Virus record (IMG/VR): IMGVR_UViG_2199352024_000011
Location: 1-22,033 of that record
DNA length: 22,033 nucleotides
Strand: one strand, 5' to 3'
Source: a virus
Below, piece after piece: positions 2,677 through 21,433 of the stretch. Each line of letters opens with the position of its first letter. Positions within the stretch are counted from its first letter, which is position 1. A program made the position numbers and the translations under genes. The notes under the pieces are model-generated. The model worked only from the letters and a program-made list of their open reading frames with translations. It searched no databases and was not told the DNA's origin.

Positions 2677-4001
2677 TCAGACGATCGTGGTGATCGTGCC
2701 GACGTTGTCTTTGCAGGTCTTCAGATTGCCGGCCGCATCCATCCACACGTCACCCTTCTTCGGGCTTGCTGGATCGGACTGCGGCGTAAGGTGCAGAGCA
2801 GCGCCGCTGCCGCCGGTAGCATCTCCCGACAGGGCAGGCCCGGTGCTGCTCGGGCTCTTTCCTTGCACGCCCGCGCCCGACCCAGTGGAGATTCCTTGCA
2901 CGCCGGCCGTCACGCCTGTTGTGGTCCCCTGGACGCCGATCCCGGTAGAGCCACCTCCTACGACGCCGATCCCCAGCGAGCCGCCTCCGATTCCGAAGAC
3001 GCCTGTGCCGTTGCTGGTTCCGCCTGCGCCGTTGACGCCGGCCCCACTTCCGACGCCGTTACCTTGGAGACCGTCCGAGTTACCGGATCCACCGTTGCCG
3101 ACCACTCCCGGGGCCGCCTGCGCCGCCGTTGCCGACTACGCCCGATCCGCCGCTCGCTCCGCCAGTGGCGTCGACACCAGAACTGCTGCCTGCGCCCGTG
3201 CCTTTGAGACCTGGGCCGTTGGTGCCCGCAACACCCCACACGCCTGCGCCCGTGCCAACGCCGGTGCCCTTGACGCCGATACCGTTCGTGGAGCCGCCGA
3301 TGCCTTCGACGCCCGAGCCGCTCGCTGCGCCGCCTGAGCCCCGCACCCCGATGCCGGACGAGGGGCCGCCGGTGCCCTGAACACCGCTGCCGGTGCCCGT
3401 GCCCGTCGCTTGCAATGCGTCGACGTTGCCGGAGCCGGCCTGCGCGATCACGCCGACGCCACCCGCACCGCCCGTGGCGTGAATACCATCCGCGCCGCCC
3501 GATCCGCCTGTGAACCCGCCGCCGTGACCGGAGCCGCCGGCTCCGCCGTTCGCGACGACCCCGCGACCGCTGGTGCCGCCACCGGTGAACGTTCCACCGT
3601 CGCTGCCCGTGCCTGCTGTTGCGACAATGCCTCTCCCCGGTCGCGCCGCCGGTGAACTCGCCACCCGAGCCGCCGCCAGTTCCCTGGCCTTGCACGCCCA
3701 TTCCGTTCGTCGCGCCGCCAGTTCCTTTGACGCCCGGCCCGGACGTCGCACCGCCGGTTCCCGCGACTGCTGCGCCCGCACCGCTGCCCGTCGCGGTGAG
3801 CCCGAGGCTGAACGTTTGCGAGATGCTGAACGTGTTGCCGACGTCGATGCGCGCGCCGTGCACGTTGAGGTTCTTCGTCCGGTTCGCGAGCGCTTGGACG
3901 AACGCCGCCATGTACTCGGCGAGCTGCGTATGAGAGTCGGTCCCGTCCGGCACCGTGATGGTGACCGTGAAGGTATCGACCTCAGTGATGGCGTGTGACA
4001 T
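2677..4001 (-). CDS. Glycine-rich repeat tail fibre (about 440 aa after correcting two +1 frameshifts)
   Basis: This is probably a tail fibre shaft or adhesin. The ATG at 4001 has a strong SD (GAGAGGAAG) a few bases upstream. The N-terminal 70 residues form a non-repetitive attachment-like domain (MSHAITEVDTFTVTITVPDG). About 25 short repeats of 10-13 residues follow, each built on G-V/L-x-G (GVRGSGGAASGS, GVEGIGGSTNGI, GVQGISTGSGA). The C-terminus (KKGDVWMDAAGNLKTC) is a motif often seen near phage fibre ends. The frame breaks twice: at the G run 3635-3638 and near the G/C run 3107-3113. Removing one base at each gives a single continuous 440-residue repeat protein, since 1325-2 is divisible by three. 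Read literally the gene is broken and would give only an N-terminal fragment with a frameshifted tail. Sequencing error, decay or phase variation are all possible. Confidence 0.75.
3107..3113 (-). other. Frameshift point 2 in fibre gene (extra base in a G/C run)
   Basis: The repeat reads ...GVVGNGGAGGP up to this run and then drifts to GSGRQRWIR followed by a stop. Removing one base of the CCCC (minus strand) gives GGPGVVGNGGSGNSDG and the repeat resumes through to the natural C-terminus. Confidence 0.8.
3635..3638 (-). other. Frameshift point 1 in fibre gene (extra base in a 4-base G run)
   Basis: Before this run the repeat protein reads ...EFTGGATG. After it the same frame turns to ERHCRNSR..., which has no repeat character. 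Dropping one G of the GGGG run (minus strand) restores GATGRGIVATAGTG... and the G-rich repeat continues. The signal is direct; the cause is not visible in the sequence. Confidence 0.8.
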
Positions 4002-8086: not shown

Positions 8087-8598
8087 GGCGCCGCCAACAG
8101 TTGAGCGATGCGATCGCTGTTCGTCTGGATCTCTTGCTCGACGGGATCAACGGGCGTCGCCGTCGAGCCTTCGGGCTTGGCCATCGTGAACTTGGGTTGG
8201 CGGAACTCGATAACCTTGAGCTCAATCGTCCACACGCCGTCATCGGCCTGCTCGGCCACGCCGACGCTCTCGATGACGATCGAGCGAATGCCGAGGTCCT
8301 CGAGCAGCGGATGCGCGATGTCGAGAGACCGCGCGCGCTTGCCGATCGGGGGCCGGTCGACGAGCGGACGGAACGCGTGCCAGTCGTCCCAATCCTGCGC
8401 GGTGTACAGCCAGAACTTGATCGAGAAGTGCGAGAGCTTGGTGCCGTGATAGAAGACGGTCGCGCCGGTCAGGCCGTAGCCCTGGCGTTCGTCCCACGCG
8501 CGCGGCGAGTCGGCGCCGATGATCTCACAGATACCCGGGGTGAGCTGACCACCGATCTTCGCTTGATCGACCGAGTTGTCGAGCGGGTTCCAGCTCAT
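8083..8598 (-). CDS. Baseplate hub adaptor-like protein (171 aa), between tape measure and hub
   Basis: This gene sits where Mu-like and T4-like phages encode the protein joining the tail tube to the hub (position of Mu gpN). The ATG (8598) makes a four-base overlap with the end of the tape measure gene. The central part, KLSHFSIKFWLYTAQDWDDW (about 54-73) and then LDIAHPLLEDLGIRSIVIES, is a beta-rich pattern common in tail proteins at this position. GVWTIELKVIEFRQPKF follows, then a Pro/Glu-rich tail. No LysM domain or catalytic motif is obvious. The same frame stays open upstream through out-of-frame tape measure sequence, giving a spurious 800-codon fusion; the ATGA overlap marks the real start. 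The role is inferred from position. Confidence 0.65.
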   Translation of the reverse strand: MSWNPLDNSVDQAKIGGQLTPGICEIIGADSPRAWDERQGYGLTGATVFYHGTKLSHFSIKFWLYTAQDWDDWHAFRPLVDRPPIGKRARSLDIAHPLLEDLGIRSIVIESVGVAEQADDGVWTIELKVIEFRQPKFTMAKPEGSTATPVDPVEQEIQTNSDRIAQLLAAP

Positions 8599-10485
8599 GG
8601 CTCCCCCGCGATCGGTGCGCCCATTTGAATCAGGGCGCCCTCGAGGATCTCCTCGAGCTTGCGCTTGATGTCTACGGCGAGGTCGTGCGGCTTGTCGCTC
8701 GTCGCGTGTACGTGCAGTTGATTGATCGTGACCGTCGTGCCGGTCGCAGTCTTGGCAGCTCTCGGCGAGGTCGAGCGCGACGTCGGCGCTGCCGACTCGG
8801 TGATTCGCGGTGCGCCGCCGGTCGGGTCGAGCGTCGCGCTGCGAGCCATGGGCGCGACGGGAGCTTCGACGATGCCGGCCACCGCTCGACGCGCGGCCGG
8901 TGCGCCTTGCTCGACGCCGACGGTCACGCCCGCCGGGATGGCAGCGCCCAGATTCTGAAACGCCTTCGACGGCGAGTGAATGCCGAGCGCGTCTTTGAAC
9001 GCCTGCGACGCCGCCTTGCCGATGTCCGTCACCGCGTCGACAACCCACTGCGCGCCGGACTTGAGGCCGCCAACGATGCCCTGCCAGATCGAGCGGCCGA
9101 GGTCGGTCCAGCCGATCTCCTTCCACAGCTGATACAGCAGCCTGCCGGTGTTGATCACCGCCCAGATCGCCGCCACGGCCAAGAGGAACGGCGCAGCGAA
9201 CACGACGGCAGCGGCACCGGCAACGATGAGCGCCGTAGCAAGCGCGGCCGCGGCGATGCTGCCCGCGTAGAGAGCGGCAGTGGCGAGGGTTGATTCCCTT
9301 GAACCCTTCCCCGCCGCCGCCAAAGGTGCGCTTGAACGCGGCCCGCACCTCCAACACGGCGATGATCATGCGCTGCGCGCCGAGGATCATGCCTTGGAAG
9401 AACCGTTTGACGATCGGCATCGTCGCGGTAACCGCGTCGACGAGCGGCTGCACGAGGAGCGTCATCAACTGCTTCAGGGCGCGGCCGCTGGCTGTCGACT
9501 GAGCGAACAGGTCGTTGACCGCCTTCTTCGCCTTGAGGAATGGCTCAATGTTCAGGCCGGAGAACAAGGCGGCGTTGGCCTCGCGCAGCTTCTCCGCCTG
9601 CACCGTGAGCGAGAGCATCTGCTTTTCTGCGATGCCGCCGAGGCGCGCCTTGACGTCGTCGGCGAGCTTGCGGACGGACTGACCGGTGAGCGCGGCGCTA
9701 GCGGCCCACCCCGCAAACCAGTTCGCCTGCTCCTCCCCTTGCGTCGACGCCTTGATCGCAACGCCCTCGAGCGCGGCCGACAGATTCTCGCCGCGAAGCC
9801 CCATGCGATAGAGCTGCTCGCTGTACGCCGCGATCTTGTCGCGCCCGAGCGCGCTCGACGCCGACACTCGATCGATCGCCTGCTGCATCTCGGCTGCGTT
9901 GCCGGCGGCGAGGCCGTACCACGTGCGGATCTTGGTAAGCCCCTCGAGTCGCAGCAGCTCACTGCGCCGCGCGTCCGCTTGAGCGACGCCGTAGCGCCCG
10001 AGTGCGTTGATCGCTGCGACGGTCCCGATGACGAGCGCTCCGAGCGCCGCGACGATTGCGAGAATGCCGAGCGCGATCCCACCGCCGCCCACTGCGACCG
10101 CCAGCGTGTGAAAGCGCGAGATGAGACCGCTCAGCGGACCGGGTAGCACAGCGCTTTGTTTCGCGAGCGCCGCGAGCCGAGCCTCAAAGCTGCGGCTCGA
10201 AACGCCCGTCTTGGCGAAGGTGCCGCCGAGCGCGAGGAAGCTCGACTGTGCTTCGGCGATTGCGCCCTTCTTCGCGGTGATTTGCTGTTGCAGCTGGCGG
10301 AACTGCTGGATGTTCACGACCGTCCCGCCCTGTAAGTTCTTCATCGCCTGCTGCATCTGCGAGAGCGCGCGCTTGTCGGCGGCGATCTGGTCGCCTAGCC
10401 GCTTGAGCGCACCGGCTGCGGAAGCCGCGGCGCCTGAGGTCTTATCCTCGAGCTCGATCGCAAACGTTGCAGTCTGATCCGCCAC
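8595..10485 (-). CDS. Tape measure protein (about 629 aa after correcting one +1 frameshift)
   Basis: Tape measure proteins set tail length and line the tube. The GTG start at 10485 is supported by GGAGTGAGGAC directly upstream. The N-terminus is helical with coiled-coil character (residues about 26-80, Gln/Ala-rich), followed by a hydrophobic stretch at about 127-163 and long helices to residue 388. After the frameshift at 9309-9312 the protein continues in the +1 frame with another hydrophobic stretch (AALYAGSIAAAALATALIVA). It then carries the tape-measure C-terminal motif ALGIHSPSKAFQNLGAAIPA and a GV.VGVEQG / VAGIV segment. With one base removed the gene is exactly 630 codons. Read literally, it loses its C-terminus. 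Length is modest, which would predict a fairly short tail, and it matches the gene order after the tail chaperone. Confidence 0.82.
9309..9312 (-). other. Frameshift point in tape measure gene (extra base in a 4-base G run)
   Basis: The upstream frame reads ...EVRAAFKRTFGGGGEGFKGINP and then becomes Arg/His-rich, non-phage-like sequence. Deleting one G from this run (minus strand GGCGGGGAAGGG) gives GGGGKGSRESTLATAALY..., which leads straight into the canonical tape measure C-terminal domain. No recognised +1 programmed slip sequence is present. Confidence 0.8.
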
Positions 10486-10489
10486 GTCC

Positions 10490-11142
10490 TCACTCCTTCG
10501 GCGGCGTCGTCAGTGCCTTGCGGATGTTCCGCAGCTCGGCGACCGCCTCGACCAACAACATCGCGCCTACGTACGCGCGCGCATCCTCCGACTCGAACTC
10601 GCTGGCCTTCCTTCCCAGCGCGGCAAGCACACACTCAGCGGCCACACCCAAACCCTCGTTGCTACGGGCCGCCGTCCGCAGCTCCGCTATTTTGCTGAGA
10701 CGTCCTCCGCGCGAACGCCCGCGAGATATGACACCGCGTCCGCGCAGCGGAGCAGCGTCGCAGGTAGCTCGTCCATGACGAGATCGAACACATCCGGCAA
10801 TGGGTGCACCAGACAGCCGCGCACCAAGCGATCGAGATCGACGGTCTTCAACGAGCCCTTGTCTTGGAATCGCTTGAAGGCGGCGGGGTGAGGCCGCTTG
10901 AGGATGATCGCACCCATGTCGGTCTTTACGACCGCGAGTTTCTTTCCTACTGGACCGTGCTCAGCCTCGGCCGCCTCGATCGCTTGGTCGTCGGCCAGGC
11001 TCTGCTTCTCGTCGGCGAGCGCTTCGTCGATGGCCCGCTGCGCTTCCCGAACGCGGCGCGCCTCGGCCAGCGCTGCCCGCTTCGCCCGCACCTCAGCGAG
11101 CTGCGCCGCCGTGTCGTCGTTCGGCTTCGACACCTCGGTCAT
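10490..11142 (-). CDS. Tail assembly chaperone, probable -1 frameshifted long product (about 217 aa)
   Basis: A -1 shift at the AAAA run just before the TAG stop (10690-10693) adds 66 residues that begin IAELRTAARSNEGLGVAAEC and end TTPPKE at a stop at 10490-10492. The extension looks like real protein: helical, acidic and basic in balance, with the segment ASEFESEDARAYVGAMLLVE. It exactly fills the otherwise empty 200 bases before the tape measure GTG. Phages with long tails commonly make a long chaperone by -1 slippage at this place (lambda gpGT, P2 gpE', Mu gp41-42 region), which supports the reading. The slip would be a single-tRNA Lys re-pairing on A-AAA with a UAG in the A site, not a classic heptamer. 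An independent GTG start at 10645 with GAGGG upstream is the alternative. Confidence 0.65.
10687..10693 (-). promoter_or_regulatory. Candidate -1 frameshift site (A-AAA-TAG)
   Basis: On the minus strand the sequence is GCA AAA TAG in the zero frame. The lysyl tRNA on AAA can re-pair perfectly one base back, while the UAG stop slows the ribosome. I did not see an obvious strong stem-loop directly downstream, although the following GC-rich stretch could fold. Confidence 0.5.
10687..11142 (-). CDS. Tail assembly chaperone, 0-frame product (151 aa)
   Basis: This is the short product of the tail chaperone pair, equivalent in position to Mu gp41, lambda gpG or P2 gpE. The ATG overlaps the tube gene stop by four bases. 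Residues about 10-65 are charged and helical (AQLAEVRAKRAALAEARRVR). The second half resembles chaperones of this class: VVKTDMGAIILKRPHPAAFK, VRGCLVHPLPDVFDLVMDEL and LLRCADAVSYLAG. The gene lies directly between the tube and tape measure genes, which is diagnostic. The reading frame stops at TAG, but the -1 frame continues with coding-like sequence to the tape measure start (see the extension entry). Chaperones of this type bind the tape measure to nucleate tube assembly and are not part of the finished virion. Confidence 0.78.
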   Translation of the reverse strand: MTEVSKPNDDTAAQLAEVRAKRAALAEARRVREAQRAIDEALADEKQSLADDQAIEAAEAEHGPVGKKLAVVKTDMGAIILKRPHPAAFKRFQDKGSLKTVDLDRLVRGCLVHPLPDVFDLVMDELPATLLRCADAVSYLAGVRAEDVSAK

Positions 11143-11618
11143 GGGCTCCCCTGCGACGAGTCAAAGAGCACGAGGTTGTTACGACGGATCAGCATCGCGT
11201 CGATCTCCACCTCTTCTTTGAGTGGGTCGGGGTTCTCTTCGTCGCTGCTCGAGTTGCCCGCCCACACGCAGCGTTCGATCGCGACCGTCATGGGCGTCTC
11301 GTCGGACTCGACGTATTGCACGATGATTTGGAACTCGACATCGCCATAGCTCAGTTGGTTGGCCGAGCGCGCGGCGAGCTGCAGGCGAACCGCCTGGACA
11401 CTGGACTTCCAACCCGTGAGCTTCACGGGCTCGATGGTGTACTTACCTCGCGACCGACCCCGCGGCGCGTGGTGGCGGCCCATGCCGTATGCCTTCACCC
11501 GCTCGCGCTTATCGGCGTAGGTGATGCCTGTGAAGCCGTAGAAGGGTTCTTGATCCACCTTGAGGATGATGCTTCCCCAGCTGAACTGATTGCCGTTGAC
11601 TCGAATCGCGTCAGACAT
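11139..11618 (-). CDS. Tail tube protein (159 aa)
   Basis: This is the likely inner tube subunit (Mu gpM / gp40-like position). It is encoded directly after the sheath and before the chaperone, the standard order. SD AAGGAG lies about eight bases before the ATG. The sequence is beta-rich with moderate length: MSDAIRVNGNQFSWGSIILK, FTGITYADKRERVKAYGMG, a long strand EFQIIVQYVES and an acidic loop SSSDEENPDPLKEEVEID. A conserved-looking Tyr-Gly-Phe-Thr-Gly-Ile stretch near residue 27 is common in tube proteins that share the Hcp-like barrel. It shows no clear signature beyond this, so position carries most of the weight. Confidence 0.72.
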   Translation of the reverse strand: MSDAIRVNGNQFSWGSIILKVDQEPFYGFTGITYADKRERVKAYGMGRHHAPRGRSRGKYTIEPVKLTGWKSSVQAVRLQLAARSANQLSYGDVEFQIIVQYVESDETPMTVAIERCVWAGNSSSDEENPDPLKEEVEIDAMLIRRNNLVLFDSSQGSP

Positions 11619-19335: not shown

Positions 19336-19557
19336 CTAACGCAGGCGTCGCATGTAAACCGGGTTAACAGGCTGCTGCCATGCGGTCGGCGAAATGCCGT
19401 AAATCCGCCACAAACGCCTGCGCGGCTCGTCGCTTGGGGCTGTTAACCCCGAGCCCCATTCGCTGACCCTACTCGGCGCAACGCCGGCTCGCGCCGCAAT
19501 TTCGCGACCGCTGGTGACCTGCATGAGCGCGATGAGAGCGCGCCGCCCCGGGCTCAT
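19336..19557 (-). CDS. Small helix-turn-helix DNA-binding protein (73 aa)
   Basis: This looks like a Cro/XRE-type DNA-binding protein. The ATG at 19557 forms an ATGA overlap with the terminase stop; an ATG three codons earlier is less likely. Residues about 12-35 form the helix-turn-helix (MQVTSGREIAARAGVAPSRV then SEWGSG), followed by TAPSDEPRRRLWRIYGISPTAW. This second half closely matches the HTH protein at 21430-21987 (both have W.SG....PSDE.RRRL, then GI...AW). The C-terminus is short and basic (YMRRLR). It could be a repressor, an anti-repressor-like regulator, or a packaging accessory protein recognising a pac site. The two GTTAAC boxes inside or near it are possible binding sites. The function is inferred. 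Confidence 0.65.
   Translation of the reverse strand: MSPGRRALIALMQVTSGREIAARAGVAPSRVSEWGSGLTAPSDEPRRRLWRIYGISPTAWQQPVNPVYMRRLR
19361..19449 (-). promoter_or_regulatory. Inverted pair of GGGTTAACAG boxes, possible operator
   Basis: GGGTTAACAG at 19361-19370 and its exact reverse complement CTGTTAACCC at 19440-19449 lie 69 bases apart, inside the small HTH gene. A related TGTTAACCG overlaps the start codon of the first HTH gene at 21987-21995. GTTAAC is A+T-rich and palindromic, unusual in this G+C-rich DNA. Binding by the HTH proteins is only a hypothesis. Confidence 0.3.
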
Positions 19558-21203
19558 CGCCGCCATGCATCTAGCCCCGCGTACGGATCAAGCACTGGTA
19601 CGCGGCTCTCTTGCGCGGCAACGAACTGCTGACCGCCCGCGGGGATATTGTCCCGCAGGCTCAGCGGTTCCCAACAGCTAAGCGCGAGCGCGTCGTAGCG
19701 ATCGGGGGAGCGACCAATCAGCTTTCGAACGATGTCCTTGGGCGTGACCTTGAAGCGCCCATTCGCGGCCTGCTTCCATTCGAACGCGTGCAACTCGCGC
19801 TCGAGCTTCACGTCCTCGAGGATCGCACCGCCATCGCGGAACCACTGCTCGAGGTTCGCCGCGAGCGCGTCACGCATGCGGTCGTAGATCTCGGGCTGGC
19901 GCACCGCTTTGTCGCTGGCTCGCACGCCGACGACCTCGAAGGCCTGCGGGTTCGCCTCGGCGTAGTTGCACAGCAGCGTATAGAGCCGCGAGCCGATCGA
20001 GCCCTCGCGGTCCATCACCACGACCGGCGTTTCGCGTTGGACCTTCAGCGTCGCGATGTACACGAGCAGCTGCGTAAGGTGTTGCTCCTCGTTCATCCCT
20101 TGGTGAGCGCGCAAGAGCAGCTGCTTGCACCCGCGTCGCGCACAGAAGACCGTTTCATCGCCGCTGCCCGACTCGCCTGCGGGGTCGAGGCCGAAGAACA
20201 GCCGGCCCGCATCGGACGTGTCGGCCCATCGTTGCTCGGCCGTGGTGATCGTGTGGATCGAGAAGATCTTGCCAGCCTCGGCGATCGCGTGCAGACCCTT
20301 CACGCGGATCGTGAACATCGGCGACGACTCGCCCCACTCCTGCCGTTTCTCTTCGACCCAATCGCGGGTAGCGAGCCCCGGCACCACCTCGCGCCCTTCC
20401 ACAACGTTCGGTGTCTCCTCGGATGACACCGTGATCGTGCGGTAGTGAGCCGCCTTGCCGTGGAACGCTTCGTAAAACTCGCCTGAGTTGCGGGTCGGGT
20501 TGCCGAACATCACGATCCTCGCTCCGCCCGCACGGTTGCCCTCGATGGCTTCGAAGATCGCGTCGTCGACGCCGCTCGCTTCGTCGACGATGTACAGCAG
20601 GTTGCGACCGCTGATACCGGCGACGGCCTCGGCCTCGCGAGCGGTGAAGCCCACGATCTCGCGGAAGTCGCGCGACTTGAGCCCCGTCCTCGCGAGCTCG
20701 CCCTGCTCGCCGTCGATGAGCGCCGAGTGCTCGCACGGCCTGGTGATGACGAACCCACCGGGATCGGCCTGCTTGCAGCCGAGGCATCGACCACCGCGTG
20801 CGCGCATCATGCGGAGCTCCCGCCATAAGATCTGATCGACCTGCCGCGACGTCGTCGACGTCATCACGACCCTCGCGTCCGGGAACGACGAGTAAAACCA
20901 CAGTGCTGTCGCCGAGGCGGTATTGCTCTTGCCGATTTTGTGGCCGCTGCGCACCGCGACGCGTGGGTGGTCGCGGATGGCGTCGAGAATCTCGATCTGC
21001 TTCGACCACGGCTCCACGCCGAGAATCTCTCGACAGAACTCGACGGGCCTGTCGCGGTAATGCGGATTGGGAAACCGGATGCGCGTGGCGAGCGTGCACT
21101 CGAGCGCGAGCGCCTCGCGAAACGACATCGCGAACGTCATCCGCTCGACGGGCTTGCGCCGCGACTTCCGCTCGGCCACCTCGGTCGCGATCGACGATGT
21201 CAC
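19554..21203 (-). CDS. Terminase large subunit (549 aa)
   Basis: This is the ATP-driven packaging motor and nuclease. The GTG start at 21203 overlaps the preceding stop (GTGA); a longer frame upstream has no matching features. The ATPase domain shows Walker A SGHKIGKS (86-93, Lys92), Walker B NLLYIVDEAS (201-210, Asp207/Glu208) and the coupling-type motif VMFGNPTRNSG (231-241). The nuclease domain shows the acidic residues in GLDPAGESGSG (Asp340), VVVMDREGSIG (Asp398) and SPDRYDALALS (Asp501 or Asp504). Between Walker A and B an insertion contains C140-x2-C143 and C157-x-H159, a possible metal site. The motifs are clear. The N-terminus (ERKSRRKPVE) is basic and may contact DNA or the small subunit. 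No standard small-subunit gene was recognised. Confidence 0.93.
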   Translation of the reverse strand: MTSSIATEVAERKSRRKPVERMTFAMSFREALALECTLATRIRFPNPHYRDRPVEFCREILGVEPWSKQIEILDAIRDHPRVAVRSGHKIGKSNTASATALWFYSSFPDARVVMTSTTSRQVDQILWRELRMMRARGGRCLGCKQADPGGFVITRPCEHSALIDGEQGELARTGLKSRDFREIVGFTAREAEAVAGISGRNLLYIVDEASGVDDAIFEAIEGNRAGGARIVMFGNPTRNSGEFYEAFHGKAAHYRTITVSSEETPNVVEGREVVPGLATRDWVEEKRQEWGESSPMFTIRVKGLHAIAEAGKIFSIHTITTAEQRWADTSDAGRLFFGLDPAGESGSGDETVFCARRGCKQLLLRAHQGMNEEQHLTQLLVYIATLKVQRETPVVVMDREGSIGSRLYTLLCNYAEANPQAFEVVGVRASDKAVRQPEIYDRMRDALAANLEQWFRDGGAILEDVKLERELHAFEWKQAANGRFKVTPKDIVRKLIGRSPDRYDALALSCWEPLSLRDNIPAGGQQFVAAQESRVPVLDPYAGLDAWRR

Positions 21204-21433
21204 CGACGCAGCTTCTCCGTCGCGCGCACGAGCTCCGAGGTGGCCCGGGCTTGCGCTTCGAGGGCGCGCGTCATGCGCTCGGTCAGCTGGCGATCGAGCG
21301 CGGGCTCCTCGGCCGCGTGCACGGTCGTGCCTCGCACCCAAGTGGCGACCACCGCGCCGAAGATGAACCAACCGACCCGCGTTACAACTGCTTTGGTCAT
21401 ATCCCTATTGTATCGCACTCGGCACCCTGTCAC
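21200..21433 (-). CDS. Small single-pass membrane protein (66-77 aa)
   Basis: I do not recognise this protein. It has a basic N-terminus, then a hydrophobic segment VGWFIFGAVVATWV, followed by a polar helix rich in Glu, Arg and Ala (LTERMTRALEAQARATSELV). This is the layout of an N-in, C-out anchored protein or a signal-anchor. The GTG at 21433 overlaps the preceding stop by four bases, and the terminase start overlaps its own stop. An ATG at 21400 (MTKAVVTRVG) is an alternative start and would give 66 residues. In Mu-like phages small lysis proteins such as inner spanin subunits lie upstream of the terminase genes, so a lysis role is possible, but no pairing partner is visible. Confidence 0.6.
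   Translation of the reverse strand: MTGCRVRYNRDMTKAVVTRVGWFIFGAVVATWVRGTTVHAAEEPALDRQLTERMTRALEAQARATSELVRATEKLRR
21407..21433 (-). promoter_or_regulatory. Weak promoter-like pair (GTGACA / TACAAT)
   Basis: On the minus strand GTGACA (21428-21433) lies 15 bases upstream of TACAAT (21407-21412), each one base from the sigma70 consensus. The spacing is short. A start about seven bases downstream would fall on or near the ATG at 21400, giving a leaderless message. It could be coincidence in coding DNA. Confidence 0.22.

Follow-up and report, generated by a model that had tools for sequence, protein, structure and literature searches.

A probable programmed −1 frameshift in the tail assembly chaperone gene of a seemingly uncultured myophage group

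In phage lambda, a −1 frameshift gives rise to gpGT, in which the G part binds the tape measure protein and the T part binds the tube subunit (PMC5009743). The myophages P2 and Mu also carry a gene pair ahead of the tape measure gene that is subject to a backward frameshift, which in Mu is −2 (Xu et al. 2004, as reported in PMC2628397). Here we describe a locus that is best read, from its sequence, as a programmed −1 frameshift of the gpG/gpGT type in a myophage group that appears to be uncultured. It lies in the 22,033-base stretch that makes up the whole of IMG/VR record IMGVR_UViG_2199352024_000011 (the window), and very probably encodes a tail assembly chaperone together with a frameshifted form that carries a C-terminal extension, the counterparts of lambda gpG and gpGT. 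The locus shares with lambda (slip site GGGAAAG) its place between the tube and tape measure genes and the combination of a short product with a −1 extension. It differs in that the group is sheath-bearing (contractile-tailed), the zero-frame stop falls 0–3 nt after the slip codon, the window's slip site lacks P-site re-pairing, and its chaperone has no sequence match to named tail assembly chaperone families. The likeness to P2 and Mu lies in the gene pair before the tape measure and in the backward direction of the shift. As in E. coli dnaX, the window would combine re-pairing of tRNA-Lys on A_AAA with an upstream internal Shine-Dalgarno (SD) sequence, although two elements of dnaX, the heptamer and the downstream hairpin, are lacking in the window.

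All tail-module coordinates are on the minus strand. The gene order, which is the same in relatives, is tail sheath (DUF2586/phrog_907), tube-like protein, chaperone and tape measure. The tube-like product (11139..11618) matches the PHROG family phrog_4579, a tail protein, at E=0.0012 and phrog_9206, labelled major head protein, at E=2e-9; we call it tube-like, an assignment resting mainly on position. The chaperone (10687..11142; 151 aa followed by TAG) is located between the tube-like and tape measure genes, as in gpG/gpGT-type pairs, and its 3′ end reads GTC TCA GCA AAA TAG. This places the slip site, A GCA AAA, at 10690..10696, with its re-pairing part, A-AAA, at 10693-10690 and the zero-frame TAG (10687..10689) directly 3′. 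The −1 frame is open across the chaperone end. From ATA (10690) it encodes IAELRTAARSNEGLGVAAECVLAALGRKASEFESEDARAYVGAMLLVEAVAELRNIRKALTTPPKE, comprising 66 codons, and then reaches TGA at 10492-10490, just before the GTG (10485) that starts the tape measure gene (8595..10485; PHROG tape measure matches at E=1.9e-15). The coordinates given in the initial annotation, its length of 66 residues for the −1 extension (10490..10690) and its GTG at 10645 all proved exact.

Ribosomes probably slip back one base at the chaperone end some of the time, adding the 66 residues. In the mechanism we propose, most ribosomes would end at TAG (10689-10687) to release the 151-aa chaperone. In a minority, positioned at AAA with the upstream GGAGG (10704..10708) paired to 16S rRNA, tRNA-Lys would move back from this codon onto the AAA that overlaps it (10693-10691), and reading would resume at AUA GCG GAG to give a 217-aa fusion. 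Tandem re-pairing in the P and A sites (canonical X_XXY_YYZ) is not available in the window, and the slip most likely occurs from the P site, because the GCA tRNA cannot re-pair at −1, on AGC. On this view tRNA-Lys would already have been translocated to the P site when it slips, UAG would occupy the A site, and the slip would thus compete with release factor 1. We infer this timing, as we do the occurrence and efficiency of slippage. By analogy with lambda, the short form would coat the tape measure, whereas tube subunits would be recruited by its extended counterpart.

As a query, the chaperone alone found no relatives in viral contigs or phage records, and its alignment was too variable to serve for scanning. 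The tube protein retrieved 55 IMG/VR loci, and an alignment of tubes retrieved 80 along with one MAG contig; the sheath found no relatives among genome contigs. Together, the tube and sheath searches yielded 71 further junction-distinct relatives (70 from IMG/VR and the MAG contig). Two HMMs, one for the chaperone and one for the extension, identified both parts in 72 junction-distinct loci, window included, which clustered into 67 lineages. The window's sister phage (L066/L012) has an extension that is 86% identical at the DNA level. No INPHARED phage record matched the chaperone or the tube, and it is for this reason that the group appears uncultured. The sole bacterial-genome relative found is the MAG contig (L146), from a MAG labelled Actinomycetota; its coverage is low (cov 1.49), and it may be a phage contig that was mis-binned and so not point to a host.

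Relative to the chaperone, the extension occupies the −1 frame in every one of the 72 loci, and an A_AAR sequence (A_AAA or A_AAG) is present at the zero-frame stop or one codon before it. The proposal that the tail chaperone is extended by a −1 shift was thus borne out in every relative examined. This constancy bears directly on the concern, raised in the initial annotation, that a base is missing from the AAAA run and that sequencing or assembly error has split one gene into two frames. The reading frame is indeed interrupted elsewhere in the contig, both in the tape measure gene, near 9290, and within the Gly-rich fibre region (2677-4001), but the same frame change and stop placement recur in 72/72 loci from many independent metagenomes and one MAG contig, and the tape-measure break, unlike the frame change in the chaperone, is absent from relatives. 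The chance that a lost base explains the locus is negligible. With a −1 extension that begins at a slip within one codon of the stop in 72/72 loci, a lost base and a separate gene both fail as explanations of the extension. As judged from sequence, the frameshift arrangement is real, being common to all 72 sequences that could be checked, the window included, and is of a kind already known in phages.

A separate gene could in principle arise from a start of its own, at GTG 10645 or TTG 10651, or from reinitiation at the stop, for example at the AUA overlapping UAG. The GTG, noted in the initial annotation as a possible independent start, does exist in the −1 frame and has GAGG upstream of it in the window, and the SD-like element ahead of the stop might also help terminating ribosomes to reinitiate, as happens at other coupled genes (PMC5009743). 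The sister phage, however, has ATA in place of GTG 10645 and CTG in place of TTG 10651, and across the family no alignment column keeps a start codon. Comparison with the same locus in relatives, recommended at the outset, revealed the extension in the −1 frame everywhere and no separate gene with a conserved start. Conservation in the extension alignment begins at the slip site, upstream of both candidate starts, and the first −1 codon is ATC, ACC, GTA, GTG, ATG or AGT in 16/67 lineages, so that there is no shared start at the stop either. A separate gene would also leave the conserved slippery heptamers without a purpose, and we consider this explanation very unlikely.

Canonical heptamers occur in 51/72 loci (GGGAAAA in 36, AAAAAAA in 12, AAAAAAG in 2 and GGGAAAG in 1). 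The lambda-type G_GGA_AAR heptamer is thus found in most relatives of the window, and L082 carries GGGAAAG itself. In the other 21/72 loci, full re-pairing is possible for the lysine tRNA only: these P-site-unpaired variants are GGCAAAA (8), AGCAAAA (5), CGCAAAA (2), GTCAAAA (2), GGAAAAA (2), CTCAAAA (1) and CGAAAAA (1). The initial description of the site as a single AAA and not a classic heptamer is accurate for the window, whose AGCAAAA is one of several recurrent variants, but does not extend to the sister phage, which has GGGAAAA there, or to the majority of relatives. On a quick tree with many weak forks, built from the chaperone and extension with the slip region excluded, the paired and unpaired P-site states interchange at least 12 times by parsimony without loss of the extension. 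The stop adjoins the slip codon in 59/72 loci and follows one codon later in the other 13, giving a slip-to-stop distance of 0–3 nt throughout the family. By comparison, the PRFect study gives a mean distance of 26 nt in the SEA-PHAGES set and of 36 nt in that of Xu (PMC10885494). A motif that PRFect also lists, ‘twoonefour’, would, judged by its name, include GGCAAAA but not the window's AGCAAAA.

Codon usage at the junction is sharply skewed. Lysine at the slip position is encoded by AAA in 64/67 lineages, as compared to 22% elsewhere in these genes (where AAG accounts for 78%). Slip-position Gly is GGA in 35/35 cases versus 14% elsewhere, and slip-position Ala is GCA in 12/12 versus 12% elsewhere. 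In 51/67 lineages the −1 frame opens with ATA, a rare codon that accounts for 19/173 Ile codons over the remainder of the extension; this choice keeps TA(G/A) in the zero frame. The slip and the zero-frame stop are thus both maintained, in keeping with a need for both products. The extension itself evolves as a coding sequence: for close pairs, its median dN/dS is 0.15 (0.11 for the chaperone), and differences at the three codon positions of the −1 frame are 0.13, 0.05 and 0.33, such that the third position dominates. Nor is the open −1 frame a product of chance: an HMM of the extension from 24 relatives, with the window excluded, matches the window at E=2.7e-24. The substitution pattern indicates that the extension is under purifying selection and conserved as protein.

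The optimum for an SD sequence upstream of −1 shifts is 9–14 nt (PMC5009743). Taking as a stimulator either an upstream SD at this spacing or a downstream structure, the window has one in the GGAGG that precedes the slip codon AAA by 11 nt. Across the family, SD-like 4-mers occur 6–15 nt before the slip codon in 51/67 lineages, with a peak at 8–12 nt, as compared to 40.5 ± 2.5 expected from synonymous shuffling (maximum 46 in 200 shuffles). Folding of the 100 nt after the stop, along the lines suggested in the initial annotation, gave z +1.2 and no structure in the window. The family mean z is about −0.9 at +8 to +68, with 11/67 lineages below −2, and downstream RNA structure is no general element of the family. 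The SD-like element sits at translational spacing, which argues against a transcriptional origin of the fusion, with slippage of the polymerase, not the ribosome, on the A run. Some relatives do have 7–9 consecutive A residues, but the window and most relatives have only four, a run too short for efficient polymerase slippage, and this origin of the fusion seems extremely improbable. Programmed ribosomal frameshifting thus remains our preferred reading.

Experiments in bacteria with the HIV slip site placed immediately before a stop codon showed that the slip has to compete with the cognate release factor (Horsfield 1995, as described in PMC4373837), and in a few bacteria a zero-frame stop lies directly 3′ of the dnaX site (PMC5009743). 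In this phage group the frameshift might work as a −1 ‘shifty stop’: with the zero-frame stop waiting in the A site, one peptidyl-tRNA-Lys alone would slip on A_AAA, and release factor 1 (RF1) would tune the ratio of the two chaperone forms. Hints in this direction come from the stop adjoining the slip codon in 59/72 loci, from the stop at the shift being TAG in 48/67 lineages (TGA in 2/67), and from the repeated switches between paired and unpaired sites; we nevertheless regard the idea as speculative and rather unlikely. The extension's own stop is TGA in 44/67 lineages, and the TAG bias at the shift may stem from −1 frame coding (ATA-G) or from an RF1 preference. We found no support for the idea that a slip site unpaired in the P site needs a stop directly beside it: the stop abuts 20/21 unpaired and 39/51 paired sites (p=0.09, or p=0.16 when only lineages are counted), an independent-pairs test of the link was uninformative, and there is one counterexample (L116). 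If the ‘shifty stop’ were true, host RF1 would tune tail assembly through the chaperone ratio, much as RF2 tunes prfB, although that shift is in the +1 direction and the one proposed here in the −1 direction. The family also provides a well-sampled natural series for testing what a minimal bacterial −1 frameshift requires: over 67 lineages, a single orthologous position has changed at least 12 times between tandem and single-tRNA slip sites, and the window's site is a recurrent minimal variant.

The chaperone, aligned across 24 sequences of the family, has a confident AlphaFold2 model (pLDDT 91) that consists of a long helix followed by a small α/β domain. Its best solved match is 3fgx, an uncharacterised protein of B. 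stearothermophilus (Z 10.3). Matches to YqbN (3klu, Z 5.4) and the HK97 tail assembly chaperone (2ob9, Z 4.6) lie below Z 8, where scores can reflect a common arrangement. Both align with the C-terminal domain of the model at 12–15% identity, and differ in that the window protein has a long N-terminal helix (residues 8–62). Several weak predicted viral fold matches are annotated as tail assembly chaperones. Sequence searches with the chaperone gave no match to a named family of such chaperones, and a search of PDB sequences returned only a chance-level bZIP match. The extension model is helical (pLDDT 81), and a fold search with it gave no convincing match. Of the 24 chaperone relatives, 4 match Pfam DUF6848 (best 2e-5) and 10 match phrog_5128, which has no assigned function; these two families may be unrecognised tail assembly chaperones. 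The 66-residue part corrects the annotation of this phage group, as gene callers will miss it.

Elsewhere in the window, the tape measure frame is broken at 9270-9330 (minus strand). The frame is open over about 1.8–2.3 kb in relatives with enough sequence, so that the break near 9290 looks specific to the window contig, reflecting sequencing or assembly error or decay. A Gly-rich, repeat-containing fibre-like protein at 2677-4001 (minus strand) changes frame about twice, passing from the frame of ATG 4001 to another from about 3620 and then to that of 3105-2677, through either indel errors or repeat-driven variation. Finally, two small HTH_3-like proteins with similar motifs (19336-19566 and 21430-21987, minus strand) flank a large-terminase-like ORF, and one of them could be a small terminase subunit.
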